DNA from: Chloroflexota bacterium
GTDB taxonomy: Bacteria > Chloroflexota > Anaerolineae > Anaerolineales > Anaerolineaceae
Length of the DNA stretch: 64,000 nucleotides
Assembly (NCBI GenBank): GCA_012797815.1
Contig: JAAZOK010000163.1
Coordinates: forward strand, 1 to 64,000
Reading direction: 5' to 3'
This document shows positions 13,129 to 20,611 of this stretch, one piece after another. A program made the translations under genes and the position numbers. The notes below the pieces were generated by a model. The model saw only the letters and a list, made by a program, of their open reading frames with translations, searched no databases and was not told the origin of the DNA. How positions within the stretch are numbered: the stretch's first letter is position 1; each line of letters starts with the position of its first letter.

Positions 13129-15462
13129 TTAATTATTTGTCTGCGTTGTGCCATAATCTTGCAGAATCTGCTCTGGTGATAAACGCAAGAGAAAACGCTG
13201 GAAGGCAGCCATCTCACTGAAAGCTTGCAGTAACAGTGTCTGCCAGTGGACCCGGGCGCTCATATCAGGAAGAGTGTCGCCGGTGCTGATAATGCGTTTC
13301 TCTTTGCCCCTGACTTCTACCTTGATCTGACCTCCTGCCTGAAGCAAGTGCAAGCCAATTTCGATCATGGAAGATGGTACCCCCAGCATAGCAGCATACT
13401 GCTCCGGTGAGATGATGCCCTGTTTTTCACGTAGTGCATATTTGAGCATGCCCACCAACGTTTGCAGGAAAATACGGGGATTCATGGCTTCTTGGGGCAG
13501 GTTGAACAGTGCCATAGTGTGGGGCTGGACTATCGCCAGAATGGATCGCAGGACGGTAGCATGCGGGGGCATGTGCAGAAGTACCAGCAGGGAATGCGGT
13601 TCCAGTTCCAGCCGGTTATGCGCTTGCACCTGGGCAATGGTGATGTGCTCACCCCAACAGAGCGCTTTCCCGCTGCTGCAGACCTGCAGCAGGTCAGGCA
13701 GGCTGTTATTTAGGTGGCGGTGATCCAGAATGGTGATGCCTGGTTCCTTCTCCGTGATAGCTATGGATTCCGGTTGTCGTTCGCGCGCGTCCACCCAACC
13801 CAATTCCAAACTGCTTGCACCGCGGAAGGTGCTGCGCCTGATCGTATATGCCAGATCGATCTCACCGGATGGTAGGGGAGTATCAAAGGCGTGCCACCAT
13901 TTCACTTCATAATGCTGTCCAGCGGCAGATGTGACCTGGATAGAACGGTGTACTTTATCGCGATCGAGATAGCGGAACCCCGCGATGTGCAGATGTTCCG
14001 CCAGGAAGGTGGGAGCGGGATTGCCAGCCCCATAGGGGGCTAATTTTTCCATAGATTGTACGAATGATTCATCCACACCAGCCAGCGGCAGATAAGCATC
14101 GATCGGTAAGGTTGCTTCTATTTCACCAACTCCGACGATGGATGCAATGGAGCTGTTCAGTTGCTGCACAAATGAGTCGAATTGCTGCTGGTGCAGCGCC
14201 ATGCCGGCTGCCATGGCATGTCCCCCATAAGATACCAGCAGATCGCTGTGTGCCTCTAATTGCTGCGTGATATCAATGCCCGGAATAGAGCGGGCGGAAC
14301 CTTTCAACATGTCATGGCGGTCCTTGCTCAATAAAATGGCTGGTTTGCCATAGGTATCGCACAGATGGTTGGCAACGATGCCCAAGATGCCGGCTGGCCA
14401 GGCAGGATTTGCCAGGATGATGATGCTTTTCTCCTTGAAGGCGGGATCTTTTTCAATTTGGGAAACGGCTGCCTGGTATACCTGATTGACCAGCATTTTG
14501 CGCTGGTTGTTCAATCCCTCTAATTCGGCAGCAGTACGCCGGGCAAGCATCAGGTCATCTGTCAACAGAAAGTTCACCATGGGATTGGCATCTCCCAGAC
14601 GCCCGCGGGCATTCATGCGCGGGGCGAGAGTAAAGCTGACGGTTTGCTCATCCACGGAATCCAACGGTACCTCTGCAGTACGCAACATTTCCTGGATAGC
14701 CAGGCGCGGGCGACGATGCAGAAGGTCAAGCCCATATTGCACCATATAGCGGTTTTCGTGAAGCAAGGGGGCAACATCCGCGATGGTGCCCAATGCGACC
14801 AGATCCAAAACCGACTCCTGCCATTCGTCCAGCATATCTAATTCAGCGGCAAGGGCACGGGTCAAAATAAAAGCCGTCCCCACACCACTCAAGTTGTGAA
14901 AAGCATGCTCCGCATCAACAAAATGAGGGTTGATGGCAACCAGCACGGCAGGCAGCTGTTTGGGCGGGGTGTGATGGTCGGTGATGATCACGTCCACGCC
15001 CTGTTGGGTAGCAAATTCCAGTGCTTCATGAGCGGAGATACCTGTATCGCAGGTGACCAACACATCCACTCCCTGCCTGAGGAAATGCTCTAAAGGTGTT
15101 TTGAGAATCCCGTGAGATTCTTCCTCCCGGATAGGGATATGATATTGCACAGGAAGTTGTATCGTGCGAAAGAAATTGACCAGCAGGGCGGTGGAGGTCT
15201 GCCCATCCACGTCAAAATCACCCCAAATGCCGATCCTTTCTTTTTTTGACAGTGCCTGCAAAAGGCGCTGCGTGGCTGTCTCTACTCCGGGCAACTCGTA
15301 TGGATCGGTGGGAGAATAACAGGTGTAATCCAGGAAGGGAATGGCTTGATCGGCAGTGGTGATGCCTTTCTTTACCAGTGCTTCTGCCAGATAGGGAGAA
15401 CGCGCATAATAAGCTTGCAGGCTATCGGGGACGATGATGGGATGGGGGGTTATCCAGCGCAT
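13129..15462 (-). CDS. recJ: Single-strand-specific exonuclease RecJ
   Basis: A 777-residue 5'-3' ssDNA exonuclease of the DHH family, acting in recombination and mismatch repair. Motifs of the DHH domain are DFDVDG, TCDTG, ITDHHTPP and NPHFVD. The DHHA1 domain has YGGHAMAAGMAL, and an OB fold follows. The C-terminal about 200 residues extend beyond the minimal RecJ core, as in many Gram-positive-type enzymes. Its ATG lies two bases after the stop of the upstream nuclease gene, making it the fourth gene of the resection operon. Co-transcription with an AddAB-like set suggests the two end-processing routes are produced together. Confidence 0.93.
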   Translation of the reverse strand: MRWITPHPIIVPDSLQAYYARSPYLAEALVKKGITTADQAIPFLDYTCYSPTDPYELPGVETATQRLLQALSKKERIGIWGDFDVDGQTSTALLVNFFRTIQLPVQYHIPIREEESHGILKTPLEHFLRQGVDVLVTCDTGISAHEALEFATQQGVDVIITDHHTPPKQLPAVLVAINPHFVDAEHAFHNLSGVGTAFILTRALAAELDMLDEWQESVLDLVALGTIADVAPLLHENRYMVQYGLDLLHRRPRLAIQEMLRTAEVPLDSVDEQTVSFTLAPRMNARGRLGDANPMVNFLLTDDLMLARRTAAELEGLNNQRKMLVNQVYQAAVSQIEKDPAFKEKSIIILANPAWPAGILGIVANHLCDTYGKPAILLSKDRHDMLKGSARSIPGIDITQQLEAHSDLLVSYGGHAMAAGMALHQQQFDSFVQQLNSSIASIVGVGEIEATLPIDAYLPLAGVDESFVQSMEKLAPYGAGNPAPTFLAEHLHIAGFRYLDRDKVHRSIQVTSAAGQHYEVKWWHAFDTPLPSGEIDLAYTIRRSTFRGASSLELGWVDARERQPESIAITEKEPGITILDHRHLNNSLPDLLQVCSSGKALCWGEHITIAQVQAHNRLELEPHSLLVLLHMPPHATVLRSILAIVQPHTMALFNLPQEAMNPRIFLQTLVGMLKYALREKQGIISPEQYAAMLGVPSSMIEIGLHLLQAGGQIKVEVRGKEKRIISTGDTLPDMSARVHWQTLLLQAFSEMAAFQRFLLRLSPEQILQDYGTTQTNN

Positions 15463-15464
15463 GT

Positions 15465-16304
15465 TCAGTATGCAATTTCCTCGATATTCTCGAAATCCAG
15501 GTCCAGATCTTCTAGATCCAGGTCCGGAGTGGTCTCCTGGTCATCAGTAAAGATATTGCCTGCCACATCACCTCGTCCGCAGTAGGAACGGTAAACACAG
15601 AAACGGCAGCGCTTTTCGTCTTCGGTCTTAGGGAAAGCAGCTATGGTCTTGCTCTCAATTTCCTCCATCAATCCACGCAGTTGGGTTTCGTCCTGTTGCA
15701 TTTGTACGGATGAATACTTGAAGAGTTCTGGTTCATGCGGATATTGCGGGAACCAATATTCCAATGTAACATTTGCCGGAGAAGCGAGTTGCTTTTCGTT
15801 CACGGATAACCCGGCCTGACATAGGATATACGGGTAAATAAGGGTTTGCATCTTTTCTGCTAAAATGCGACGAGCAGGCTTGTGATCGCCAGCGGTGGTC
15901 TTCCAATCGAAAATGATCACCTTGTGATCGGCAGTGATTGCCAGCACATCAAATTTAGCAATCAGAAGATGATCTCCCAGGCTGCTTTGAAACAGGATCT
16001 CTGAAACGGTGTGGAGAAAAGGCTGTTCACGAATGAATTCCATAAAATGCTGCCACCAGGTGTGCAGATCATTATCGTGGATCTGTTGTTCGATCAACGC
16101 AGGATCGATGTTGTGGAAATACTGGTCCACACAACGATGAAATAACTCTCCCTTATGACGATATTGCTCGAAAACCAGATAAGGGCTGCTCTGTTCGGCG
16201 GGCCAATCCAGCTTCTGGATATAGCGCAGCAAAAAACGACGCTGGCATTCCACATAATCTTGCAGTGATTGCGCGCTGAAACGGAAATCAGTCAAGTGCG
16301 GCAT
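15465..16304 (-). CDS. AddB-type PD-(D/E)XK nuclease with Fe-S cysteines, stand-alone
   Basis: A 279-residue nuclease resembling the C-terminal nuclease domain of AddB or Cas4. I can place all expected elements: His56, Asp119 in KFDVLAI, Asp133-x-Lys135 in FDWKTT, the Gln153-x3-Tyr157 motif, and four cysteines at 20, 233, 236 and 242. The C-terminal spacing CX2CX5C equals that of the AddB iron-sulfur staple as I know it from B. subtilis. In AddB this domain is fused to the helicase-like part; here it is separate. Its start overlaps the end of the upstream helicase gene by 17 bases. It is probably the nuclease subunit of a split AddAB-like complex. Confidence 0.85.
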   Translation of the reverse strand: MPHLTDFRFSAQSLQDYVECQRRFLLRYIQKLDWPAEQSSPYLVFEQYRHKGELFHRCVDQYFHNIDPALIEQQIHDNDLHTWWQHFMEFIREQPFLHTVSEILFQSSLGDHLLIAKFDVLAITADHKVIIFDWKTTAGDHKPARRILAEKMQTLIYPYILCQAGLSVNEKQLASPANVTLEYWFPQYPHEPELFKYSSVQMQQDETQLRGLMEEIESKTIAAFPKTEDEKRCRFCVYRSYCGRGDVAGNIFTDDQETTPDLDLEDLDLDFENIEEIAY

Positions 16305-18510
16305 AATATTGCTCCCAGAAGGCGGTCAATTCCACAAAGGGAATTGCCATCACACAATTATTGAATTTTCCTTCATTCCAGGTCATCACCAATTCACGGC
16401 GGGCACGTGTGATGCCCACATATAACAGTCGCAACCTTTCAGCACTATAGTTGATGCGCGCCTGCATGGTTGGCTCTCCTTCTTGATACGGCTTTCCACC
16501 AGCCAGATTTTTCAGCGCAGCCAACATTTCCGCTTCCAGGTTGAGGCGGTCGCGAATAAAATACCGCTCTGAAATATACTGGTCGTAGGGTTGGTTGGTG
16601 GGGAAATCGTAATTATTCACCGAGACCAGGTAAACGCGATCCCATTCCAATCCCTTGGCTTTATGAATGGTGGAAACCACCACTTCCCCGCGGTGCTGGT
16701 CCGGGTCAAATTCCAGTTCCTCTTCTGAAAAGCCGTTGATGCGGATGCGATTGCTGTAGATGCGATCCAATTCGACGGCTACATCTTTTAATGTCAATGA
16801 CGGGTTGGCAGTAGCAGCCCTTTCCATCATTTCAGCTAATTTATAAGTGAGTGCCAGTTCATGGGCTGCAGTGAATAACTGTACCGAGAGGGTCAGAATG
16901 AATTCATGGATGGGTAACAGGCTGGCTTTCTGGTTTTTCTGTATGAAGATGACGAACTGTTCAAAGTTTTCTCGGAAAGTGGCGGTAAGTGAGTCCAGCG
17001 ATGATGGTTCGTTCTGCTCAAAAGGATGGAAAAGCAGATTTTCCACCAGCGTTTCTTTCTTCAGTTTGGAACAAAAAGCCCGGAAGATTTTTTTCTCTTG
17101 CGCATCCTCGGAATGCTCCTCATACAGGCTCTGGAAGGCGGCTGCCAGTTTTTTGGCGCTTTGTGGTTCTGCAAAAAAATACATCACATCGGATAATATT
17201 TTCGCTATTCTGCGCGTAGCAAAACTGGTATGCAGAAGCTCCACCGTTTTGACCTTTTTGTTCTTCAACTTCTGCACAAGACTGGCGCCTTTGTCGTTGC
17301 GGGTGACCAGGATTGCCACAGTCTGTCGTGGATTTTCTGCCAGCCAGCGCACCACCGACTGCACGACCATATCCTCTTCTTTTTCAGGCGAGAGGGCTTT
17401 ATCATACAGATAGATACGTTCCGGCATATCCGGGGGATTGGGTTGTGGATCATTCTGCCCGGTAGGTTGGATGAGAGGTGGAACAAGTGCCTTTAATAAT
17501 TCCGGTGCGGGTTCTTTTTGATTCCATTTAATGAGGTGGTTTGCCAGGTGGATGATACTGAAAGTGGACCTGCCGGAGTTGGGCAGATCATAGGGTTGCA
17601 CTCCTTTTTCATGCAGAAATTGCAGCAGGTATTTGGGATCAGCCGTGGTAAAGGTTTCATAAATAGCCTGATTCGGATCACCGACCCGTACCCAGTTGCC
17701 CTGTTCCCCGCATAAAAGACGGAGGATCTTTTCCTGCAGGGCGGAGGAATCCTGGGCTTCATCCTCGAGAATATATGGCCAGCGTTGCTGCAGGCGTTGC
17801 AGGTAATCCGCATCCAATTTCAAAATGGAATAAGCTAACCGGATGAGGTCCTGAAAGTCGATGGCAGCTTGATAACTCAAAGCATTCTGGTAATCCTGGT
17901 AGACTTCCACCCCAAAACGCAGCAATTCCTGATCGATGCCATGATGAGCCATTTGTGTCCGGATTTGTTGTGGGTTCAACTCCATATCCTTGGCTTGCTG
18001 GATAAAAGCGGATGCCATAGAAAGCAGTACCTGCTTCCACTTGTTGCCCAAATATTGCATATTGTCACGTGCATCGAGTGCGGTATATTGCAGGAGAAAA
18101 TCGGGGTTGTTGCGTTGCCAGGTGCTGACGATCTGATCCAGCAGATCATTGCTGGCTCGTTCATCCAGGATCTGGAAATTATTGGATAGCCCTGCCAGAT
18201 CGGGTCTTTCGCGCACGATATCGTGTGCCAATCCATGCAGGGTACGCACGCGATAGCCGATATTTTCCAGCAAACCCGCCTGGCGCATAAAAAGTGCGAT
18301 GCGCTTGGAAAAATTCTGCACAGCCGAATTCACCAGCGTCACGATCAGCACTTCCTGATCTTCTTTGATGCGGTCGGAAGCGATCAGATCGGCTGCCAGG
18401 TAGGAGAGGGTATGCGTTTTGCCGCTGCCGGGGACGGCAGCGATGCCCATCTTGCCGTGGGTATAGCGCAGAATGGCTGCCTGAGCGGGACGGGGAATGA
18501 ACTCAGGCAT
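16288..18510 (-). CDS. UvrD/AddA-like superfamily 1 helicase lacking a nuclease domain
   Basis: A 740-residue SF1A DNA helicase. The motifs are Walker A AVPGSGKTHTL at 25-35, Walker B ILEDEAQDSS at about 247-256, VGDPNQAIYETF at 276-287, VVVSTIHKAKGLEWDRVYLV near 610-630 (motif V) and LRLLYVGITRARRELV near 705 (motif VI). All ATPase residues look intact, so this is the motor. AddA proteins carry a C-terminal nuclease; this one ends after motif VI. It overlaps the gene upstream by 8 bases and the nuclease gene downstream by 17, so the three products are probably made in matched amounts. A plain UvrD/PcrA role is the alternative. Confidence 0.9.
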   Translation of the reverse strand: MPEFIPRPAQAAILRYTHGKMGIAAVPGSGKTHTLSYLAADLIASDRIKEDQEVLIVTLVNSAVQNFSKRIALFMRQAGLLENIGYRVRTLHGLAHDIVRERPDLAGLSNNFQILDERASNDLLDQIVSTWQRNNPDFLLQYTALDARDNMQYLGNKWKQVLLSMASAFIQQAKDMELNPQQIRTQMAHHGIDQELLRFGVEVYQDYQNALSYQAAIDFQDLIRLAYSILKLDADYLQRLQQRWPYILEDEAQDSSALQEKILRLLCGEQGNWVRVGDPNQAIYETFTTADPKYLLQFLHEKGVQPYDLPNSGRSTFSIIHLANHLIKWNQKEPAPELLKALVPPLIQPTGQNDPQPNPPDMPERIYLYDKALSPEKEEDMVVQSVVRWLAENPRQTVAILVTRNDKGASLVQKLKNKKVKTVELLHTSFATRRIAKILSDVMYFFAEPQSAKKLAAAFQSLYEEHSEDAQEKKIFRAFCSKLKKETLVENLLFHPFEQNEPSSLDSLTATFRENFEQFVIFIQKNQKASLLPIHEFILTLSVQLFTAAHELALTYKLAEMMERAATANPSLTLKDVAVELDRIYSNRIRINGFSEEELEFDPDQHRGEVVVSTIHKAKGLEWDRVYLVSVNNYDFPTNQPYDQYISERYFIRDRLNLEAEMLAALKNLAGGKPYQEGEPTMQARINYSAERLRLLYVGITRARRELVMTWNEGKFNNCVMAIPFVELTAFWEQYYAALD

Positions 18511-20611
18511 GCTGGGCTGCTCCGCGCAGGCGCTTCAGGAAGAGTTGCATCGCGCTCAGCAGGGGACTGCTCTGGTTGATACAGGCTTGATTCAATCCAA
18601 CTGCGTATAGATAAACATGGCTCTCACAACGCTCCAATAGCCCTTCCACCAATCTTGCCAGTGAAGCTTGATTGGCTTGGTATTCCTCTGCATCGGTCCA
18701 GCGTCTTTCCACTGACCAGTTGCGGTTGAGCACGTAGGGATGGGTGAGGGGTTGGTCGAGGCGCTCCCACCAGCCCATGGAGCCGATATCCAGCCAGAAT
18801 TGATATTTTACGCTCCTGTTCTTCATCAAGAAGGTGAAAGCAGGGGAAATCAGTACTGCATCGGTCTGCTCGTTCCAGAGCGCGTGACGGGAAGGCAGCA
18901 GCCCGTTTTGCAGGGTCTGGATGTACATCTGATTGACATCTACCTGCTGTGCTTCAGCCAGGGCAGCAAAAGTCGTACGAAAATCGTGTATGGAACGGAT
19001 CAGGTTATTCAGCACGGTGGCTTTATCCACATCTTCATGTAATCCGAAACCGGGCTGCGCGAGTTTTTCCCCGAATAACTGCGACAAGAAGATATCCAGT
19101 GGCAAGATTTCCTGCTTAAGCCGGTAAGTTTCGATCCATTGGACCAATTCATCATATTGGTTACCGATCTGGTGGGAGATGCGATCGCGAGTGAATGCCG
19201 GGATATCCGTGAAGGGGTCCAGCCGGTTCCCATCGGTTAGGGAATTTTCTGCCAGCAGTGCAGCACGCAGGATATCGCATTGCGGGAAAACGGTCATGAT
19301 GGCGAGGCGCAGTTCCTCAACTTGGATGGGCAGCTTCCAGTGCGGGTGGGCTGCTTTGGCGAAAACCAGCATGGTGCGGGTGATGGGTTCGTCTGCCAGC
19401 GTGCGCGAAGGACGGCTGGAAATAAAGGGTATGCCCGCGACGCTCAATTTTTGTGCTAATGCGAATTTCAACGAGTCCGGTAAATAAGGAGACAGAACGG
19501 CTATCTGACCGGGGGACTGGTGCTGTTCTGTGACGAGTTTTTGAATGGTCTGGCAGACCGCATCTACCATATCGGGATAAAAGGGCACATTCTGCAATGT
19601 ATAAGCAGCCCGGGCAACAGGCGGAAGTTGGCGGGTTTCTTTTTTTAAAATACAACGCATCAGCGAAGTATTGAAGGCTTTTATATCCTCCGCTATATCG
19701 AATTGTTCGTTGAAAGTAACATGTTGTTGGCAGATGGTTGCCAGCCGTGCGGCACTGGTGGCATCTGCTCCCAGAAAAGAACGGTAACCGGCGTGCTGGT
19801 CGCTGATGAGCAGCATAGATGGGATGTTGTCATCCAGGTCAAGGATCAGATCGTGTAGAACTGGGACATCCTCTTCCAAATTATCTGCGATCAGAAAAGT
19901 GTAGGTATTGAAGAAGTCCTTTTGCAGCGAAACATCTTGCAGGATAAAACGCCGGAACAGCTCCACTTGCAGGGAATAATCCAGCACATTGTTTTGCAAA
20001 CAGAAAGCTCGAAAAGCCAGGGCACACTCCTGGGATTGTTCGTAATGTTTCTCGCGGATATTTTCACCCGTCCAGGCAGCTTTTAAGCGCGGGGCAGTCT
20101 CTTCCAGTGCATACCCGACCAGGGCAGCCTTGTTCATGGTGTCCAGGATCTGGCTGAAAAGGCGCGCACGGTCAATACGGATCTCGAGGAAGTACTTTTT
20201 ATCCAGAAAAGGCTGGCAGACCTGTCCCATGAAATATTGGGCAGTTTCCATGTTGAGGAAGGTTGGGCGGGAACTATGGGTGTTGAAACCTGCCCTTCCC
20301 TGGATAAGCGGCCAGTAAAGCTGGATGAACTGGCGTGATAAGCCAGCCAGGGTGGTAATGGTGGGAGGATTGCCCGCTGGAAATTGTGCTTCCAGCACCG
20401 CCTGGCGATATTTCTCTGCCAGCGATAGTTGGGGCACCAGCACCAGCAAGCGTCCGAACGGGTTGCAATGAGCACTGATCTGCAGCATACGGGCAATCGC
20501 CACGGTAGTTTTACCGCTTTTAAAAGGTCCGTTCAGCGCGATGTGGCCTGGGATGGGTGAATCAAGCAATTCTTGTTGGGCGGTGTTGAAAGAAATAGTA
20601 GTGTCCATCAC
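18503..20611 (-). CDS. AddB-like degenerate helicase subunit (no nuclease domain)
   Basis: A 702-residue protein laid out like the N-terminal part of AddB. Walker A is present (GPFKSGKT, 28-35). The Walker B region is altered (FLIADNLEED, about 239-248, instead of the DE-containing motif). The next motif reads ISDQHAGYRSFLGAD (269-283), matching the GD-Q-IY-FRGA block of UvrD-like helicases with changes. Clear motifs V and VI are not visible. AddB uses such an inactive helicase fold for DNA-end and Chi binding, and its nuclease is fused; here the nuclease is two genes downstream. GTG 20611 and ATG 20608 are both possible starts. Function is inferred from architecture and context. Confidence 0.75.
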   Translation of the reverse strand: MMDTTISFNTAQQELLDSPIPGHIALNGPFKSGKTTVAIARMLQISAHCNPFGRLLVLVPQLSLAEKYRQAVLEAQFPAGNPPTITTLAGLSRQFIQLYWPLIQGRAGFNTHSSRPTFLNMETAQYFMGQVCQPFLDKKYFLEIRIDRARLFSQILDTMNKAALVGYALEETAPRLKAAWTGENIREKHYEQSQECALAFRAFCLQNNVLDYSLQVELFRRFILQDVSLQKDFFNTYTFLIADNLEEDVPVLHDLILDLDDNIPSMLLISDQHAGYRSFLGADATSAARLATICQQHVTFNEQFDIAEDIKAFNTSLMRCILKKETRQLPPVARAAYTLQNVPFYPDMVDAVCQTIQKLVTEQHQSPGQIAVLSPYLPDSLKFALAQKLSVAGIPFISSRPSRTLADEPITRTMLVFAKAAHPHWKLPIQVEELRLAIMTVFPQCDILRAALLAENSLTDGNRLDPFTDIPAFTRDRISHQIGNQYDELVQWIETYRLKQEILPLDIFLSQLFGEKLAQPGFGLHEDVDKATVLNNLIRSIHDFRTTFAALAEAQQVDVNQMYIQTLQNGLLPSRHALWNEQTDAVLISPAFTFLMKNRSVKYQFWLDIGSMGWWERLDQPLTHPYVLNRNWSVERRWTDAEEYQANQASLARLVEGLLERCESHVYLYAVGLNQACINQSSPLLSAMQLFLKRLRGAAQHA

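Follow-up and report, generated by a model that had tools for sequence, protein, structure and literature searches.

Gene order at the locus

The window, which is the complete stretch of 64,000 nucleotides that was analyzed, carries four genes on its reverse strand that form an operon with overlapping frames and are named here B, H, N, and recJ in the order of reading. B (positions 18503..20611) starts with GTG and encodes a protein of 702 amino acids (aa), for which an SF1A fold with degenerate motor motifs was predicted; it has no nuclease and appears as a "dead" motor similar to AddB or AdnA. H (16288..18510, 740 aa) is an intact SF1A helicase of the UvrD family, likewise without a nuclease (PF00580, 9e-49; PF13361, 2e-24). 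N (15465..16304, 279 aa) is a free PD-(D/E)XK nuclease with an iron-sulfur (Fe-S) staple of the AddB/AdnA/Cas4 type (PF12705, 1e-23). The product of recJ (13129..15462, 777 aa) scored above the TIGR00644 cut-off in the profile search (4e-149); RecJ is a 5'-3' exonuclease for single-stranded DNA. All these genes and the motifs described below are on the reverse strand. The coordinates of the open reading frames confirmed the overlaps of 8 nt between B and H and of 17 nt between H and N, and also the distance of 2 nt between N and recJ, as given in the first-pass annotation.

This gene order was also found elsewhere in the Anaerolineae, a class of common bacteria in soil and sludge. Among 57 loci with at least 5.5 kb of sequence behind B, the genes B, H, and N were linked in 46, and recJ was in line with them in 44. 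The 8-nt overlap of B and H was seen again in 15 loci and the 17-nt overlap of H and N in 7. The neighborhood of the four genes is conserved and of a housekeeping nature, with yqgF and mltG upstream and no defense island.

A gene for a DEDDh exonuclease of 190 to 230 aa (PF00929, RNase_T, 4e-15) was located directly upstream of B in approximately 23 Anaerolineae loci, about 550 to 720 bases away and on the same strand (L081, L087, L065, and about 20 others). Because of this position directly before B, the operon at those loci may be exo-B-H-N-recJ. In the genome that contains the window, the exonuclease profile gave a weak match only, within a frame of 946 aa.

Two motor proteins and a free nuclease

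The Walker A motif of B (GPFKSGKTT, 20504..20530) is retained, with K34 present in 36 of 36 readable sequences. Motif II (D243-N244-x-E246-E247, 19871..19885) reads DNxEE instead of the expected DExQD, so that the catalytic glutamate is replaced by asparagine. N244, E246, and E247 were present in 37 of 37 B sequences and D243 in 35 of 37. The unvarying asparagine argues for a retained, non-catalytic role of B and not for decay. The description of B as a protein with a Walker A motif, a degenerate motif II, and no nuclease domain thus stands.

Direct searches with B against Pfam, NCBIfam, and the PDB sequences yielded nothing above threshold, and profiles of the B and N families performed weakly better against the PDB than the single sequences. 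The AlphaFold2 (AF2) model of B (pLDDT 89) predicts a four-domain SF1A motor along the full length of the protein. With flexible domains allowed, the model matched UvrD, Rep, and PcrA with Z scores of 28 to 29; the best rigid full-length match was the AdnB motor (Z 25, 4.1 Å over 616 residues). It also covered residues 2-696 of AddB (Z 22), and in a profile comparison, B was collinear with AddB 13-610 (E 6e-14), which bears out the earlier assignment of the 702-residue protein as AddB-like. The probable kinship of B to these motors is known only from its predicted fold and from profile comparison. A direct clue in the sequence comes from PF21445 (ADDB_N), which gave weak matches to the N-terminal 70 residues of the B homologues of G143, G161, and G057, reaching 27.3 bits in G143 together with neighbors. 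In the helicase tree, B occupies a very long branch beside the AddB motors and a probably mis-called frame, PcrA_L194; because of both the branch length and this adjoining frame, the exact position of B in the tree should not be trusted.

The invariant residues D157, K161, and R630 of B are located at places roughly matching E129, R132, and R629 of AddB, which form the ionic latch in that protein (PMC4824097). In addition, motifs V and VI of B are separated by an insertion, QPLTxPYVLSRxW, that is conserved. An ionic latch in B is not claimed; H, too, bears a long insertion between these motifs.

H keeps all motifs from the Q-motif through motif VI with their invariant residues, including a Walker A motif (VPGSGKT, 18415..18435) that does not vary in 24 homologues, and the protein ends after motif VI. 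The first-pass annotation of an intact SF1 helicase without nuclease was therefore correct. In the helicase tree, H joins UvrD and PcrA whereas AddA joins RecB, with an SH-aLRT value of 94, which is moderate support for the placement of H. H resembles UvrD proteins of the GajB type, and the matches to GajB represent generic UvrD similarity.

N belongs to the PDDEXK_1 superfamily (PF12705, 85 bits at a cut-off of 22), and a direct sequence search against the PDB gave no match. The elements of an AddB nuclease listed in the first-pass annotation were all recovered: D119, D133-x-K135, Q153, Y157, and the cysteines C20, C233, C236, and C242 with CX2CX5C spacing are unvarying in 28 homologues, and so is H56. 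The active-site stretch from D119 to K135 is at 15900..15950, C233/C236/C242 are at 15579..15608, and their partner C20 is at 16245-16247. The closest structural match of the AF2 model of N (pLDDT 84) was the AdnA nuclease (Z 19.2, 2.6 Å over 217 residues), followed by the Argonaute-associated, Cas4-like ACE1 (15.7), the AddB nuclease (14.9), and Cas4 (12.6). In the profile comparison, N matched AddB 793-1070, cysteines included (E 1e-11), and gave no match to the AddA nuclease. In the nuclease tree, N forms a clade of its own (support 100/92), with a starred branch between it and the AddB nucleases that belong to the same class. The pLDDT falls below 50 from residue 253 onward, and disorder is predicted for the 27 C-terminal residues of N. 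They nevertheless contain, behind an acidic linker, a peptide with the consensus LDFEQIxEIxF (15468..15512) that was matched in 24 of 28 homologues. A tail that is predicted to be disordered but is conserved looks like a docking tail.

Being collinear with AddB, B and N together resemble an AddB/AdnA-type subunit in two pieces. This similarity, which in N extends to the Fe-S cysteines and in B to the contact with ADDB_N in three genomes, would suit a true fission of an ancestral AddAB, with AddB giving rise to B and N, and AddA minus its nuclease to H. Such an origin is nevertheless quite improbable. The UvrD-Cas4 fusions are the better profile match for all three proteins (B, 2e-20; H, 4e-54; N, 2e-19), for B and N in comparison with AddB; H is on the UvrD/PcrA branch instead of with AddA; N is outside the AddB nuclease branch; and intact AddAB exists alongside the trio in other genomes. 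Taken together, these four observations indicate that the trio is not simply a broken-up AddAB. It would be a parallel machine built from parts of the superfamilies that also provided AddAB. The first-pass annotation is thus supported in its AddAB-like logic, in which a live and a dead SF1 motor are combined with one free Fe-S nuclease, but descent by a split of AddAB is not supported, the more so as the best fold match of the nuclease is AdnA.

Distribution and coexistence with AddAB

Co-occurrence was evaluated in 199 evenly drawn Anaerolineae genomes. The single genes were found in 109 (B), 111 (H), and 101 (N) of them; 95 contained all three genes, 85 contained none, and 12 contained B and H but no detectable N. 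Fisher's test, with kinship ignored, gave p values of 1e-48 for B-H and 2e-37 for B-N, which overstate the co-occurrence since related genomes are not independent. Strong B matches were confined to Anaerolineae in a sample of 301 genomes of the phylum Chloroflexota. A scan of 84,980 species identified 435 relatives, the best 80 of which all belonged to the Anaerolineae or to unnamed Chloroflexota and included cultured members of Longilinea, Anaerolinea, Bellilinea, Pelolinea, and Ornatilinea. The B-H-N arrangement is conserved across the Anaerolineae and is not a local accident.

In several genomes, N and sometimes H are far away from B. All three genes are retained despite their dispersal on the single contig of G067 (2.22 Mb for B, 0.20 Mb for H, and 1.03 Mb for N), and G027 is a second example. 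This dispersal, and the precedent of RecJ as a separate enzyme, would be expected if B, H, N, and RecJ were linked enzymes of one repair pathway that do not form a stable complex. The translational overlaps at many loci, the invariant surface-type residues of B, and the docking-like conserved tail of N suggest contact instead, so that a pathway of separate enzymes seems rather unlikely.

Alternatively, H and N may be a split relative of the UvrD-Cas4 proteins with a function in defense or accessory repair and with B as a regulatory paralogue, degrading foreign DNA instead of resecting chromosomal breaks. UvrD-Cas4 fusions are the best profile match for all three proteins and have been linked to defense loci, and an unfused operon of a UvrD and a Cas4-like protein in Clostridiales provides a precedent (PMC5704561); the similarity of H to GajB-type UvrD agrees with such a function. 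On the other hand, that Clostridiales operon was described outside a defense context with a proposed role in repair (PMC5704561), the genes are in a conserved housekeeping neighborhood with recJ, yqgF, and mltG, and they occur in about half of the class and in most genomes of the family to which the window belongs (N in 36 of 41). Degradation of foreign DNA as the task of the trio has therefore a low probability.

The source genome is a draft assembly that is 92% complete. In this assembly, the matches to PDDEXK_1 were limited to N and a pair of short proteins (277 and 185 aa), so that no fused nuclease of AddA, AddB, RecB, or AdnAB was found; ADDB_N gave no match, and the RecC domain (PF04257) was not detected. 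The first-pass annotation would have been contradicted by an intact addAB or recBCD in the same organism, and none was found there, but AddAB occurs in about one-third of the B-bearing relatives. Genuine AddAB, with ADDB_N and two fused nucleases, was present in 57 of the 199 Anaerolineae genomes, in 37 of the 109 genomes with B, and in 35 alongside the full trio. B, H, and N thus co-occur across the class, but full-length addA and addB are not always missing where they do. Where AddAB is present, the trio is not alone as a machine of this kind and may have another job. Neither ADDB_N nor fused nucleases were found in the cultured type strains of Pelolinea, Longilinea, Anaerolinea, Bellilinea, and Ornatilinea. 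In these five and in three further good genomes, PDDEXK_1 matched short frames (180 to 411 aa) in the absence of ADDB_N, which leaves the trio as the sole candidate found by these profiles in part of the class.

Several other loci were noted during these searches. True AddB-AddA pairs in trio-bearing Anaerolineae are at L164 4284-10964, L165 7042-13361, and L171 5978-12759. Of the two short proteins in the source genome, that of 277 aa (L002 1399-2232, C134) is a second free PDDEXK_1 nuclease with CX2CX5C and no adjoining helicase. That of 185 aa (L003 1489-2046, C127) is Cas4-like with an N-terminal hydrophobic stretch, and its gene is near NAD kinase-like and ssb-like genes; the further genomes examined also contain short PDDEXK_1 proteins with partial matches of this kind. 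Two-gene helicase-nuclease pairs in other Chloroflexota (L182 4609-10619 and L184 1518-7540) encode a first protein of about 1,000 aa without NCBIfam match and are possibly another divergent AddAB/AdnAB-type system. These first proteins were rejected as fused counterparts of B and N because their profiles did not match B.

A candidate end-resection machine and its relation to known systems

In AddAB of Bacillus subtilis, the DNA is unwound by a single SF1A motor, and each strand is cut by a nuclease of its own, the 3' strand by that of AddA and the 5' strand by that of AddB; the inactivated helicase domains of AddB scan for Chi (PMC4824097). By analogy, B, H, and N may be the three subunits of a machine for end resection at double-strand breaks, similar to AddAB and AdnAB but with the catalytic parts on separate polypeptides, a reading to which we assign a probability of roughly 60%. 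Points in its favor are the near-perfect co-occurrence of the three genes, also in genomes where they are dispersed, their operon with recJ in a housekeeping neighborhood, the predicted folds of B and N, and the negative searches for ADDB_N and fused nucleases in the source genome and the five cultured relatives. Points against it are the presence of AddAB beside B in part of the class, the closeness of H to UvrD/PcrA, the 12 genomes with B and H but no detectable N, the limitation of B to evidence from fold and profile, and the draft state of the source genome. From this analogy we infer that the three proteins form a complex with a defined strand polarity and a role in RecA-dependent repair. 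H would be the single live 3'-5' SF1A motor that unwinds the DNA end. B, a motor-fold partner devoid of catalysis, may hold or scan a strand in a structural role like that of the N-terminal module of AddB. N would be the sole nuclease and should cut the 5'-terminated strand, as it belongs to the Fe-S nuclease class that in AddAB is located on AddB. Unwinding and trimming of the 5' strand would leave a 3' tail for RecA, and RecJ, encoded in the same operon and with 5'-3' polarity, would act on the same strand as N. Since an AddA-type nuclease for the 3' strand is missing from the trio, the destructive mode that Chi regulates in AddAB should not exist in this machine.

As a tentative extension, possible rather than probable, the trio may be a fourth lineage of double-strand break resection besides RecBCD, AddAB, and AdnAB, with three subunits, one motor, a single 5'-strand Fe-S nuclease, and no destructive Chi-regulated mode, and may, in concert with RecJ, be the principal system for resection in Anaerolineae without AddAB. 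In a published survey that covered 5,563 bacterial genomes, 88% had RecBCD, AddAB, or AdnAB; Chloroflexi are not mentioned there (PMC6452273). Such a survey would count many Anaerolineae, cultured type strains among them, as being without these enzymes, a gap that the trio would fill, provided that it acts in resection. In that case, a live motor, a dead motor, and an Fe-S nuclease that are fused elsewhere would be separated on three polypeptides, so that the purpose of two parts of AddAB, its dead motor and its second nuclease, would become testable. The trio is of interest because it is class-wide, the sole candidate in many genomes, and so far unnamed. No description of B or of a B-H-N cluster was found in the literature searched, nor any report on Anaerolineae with RecBCD or AddAB or with RecJ.

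Among the known systems, AddAB shares with the trio one live SF1A motor, one inactivated subunit with motor fold, and an Fe-S nuclease of the AddB class. In AddA, however, the SF1A motor carries a fused nuclease of the RecB type, whereas H is on the UvrD/PcrA branch and has no nuclease. AddB is an inactivated SF1 module fused to its Fe-S nuclease, but B and N are encoded by separate genes. The trio also has no counterpart of the AddA-type nuclease, and N does not group with the AddB nucleases. AdnAB likewise combines two UvrD-like SF1A motor modules with a nuclease of the Fe-S type, and the motor and nuclease folds agree with those of the trio. AdnA and AdnB, however, are both motor-nuclease fusions, which gives two nucleases, compared to three polypeptides with one nuclease here. 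RecBCD is characterized by RecC and the fused nuclease of RecB, neither of which was found in the source genome. In Gabija (GajAB), the OLD-type nuclease GajA is beside GajB, whereas H has B, N, and RecJ as neighbors.

The UvrD-Cas4 fusions, helicase-nucleases with PF12705, provide the profiles closest to B, H, and N, and the order of H and N corresponds to their order of motor and then nuclease. They are, however, single fused proteins, mostly in defense contexts and with no B partner reported (PMC5704561), whereas H and N are unfused and accompanied by B and recJ at a housekeeping locus. The published description of the operon from Clostridiales mentions neither a dead motor of the B type nor recJ (PMC5704561). 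This operon has the helicase and the Cas4-like nuclease in separate genes as does the trio, a likeness by description only, and is the nearest earlier report in the literature searched (PMC5704561).
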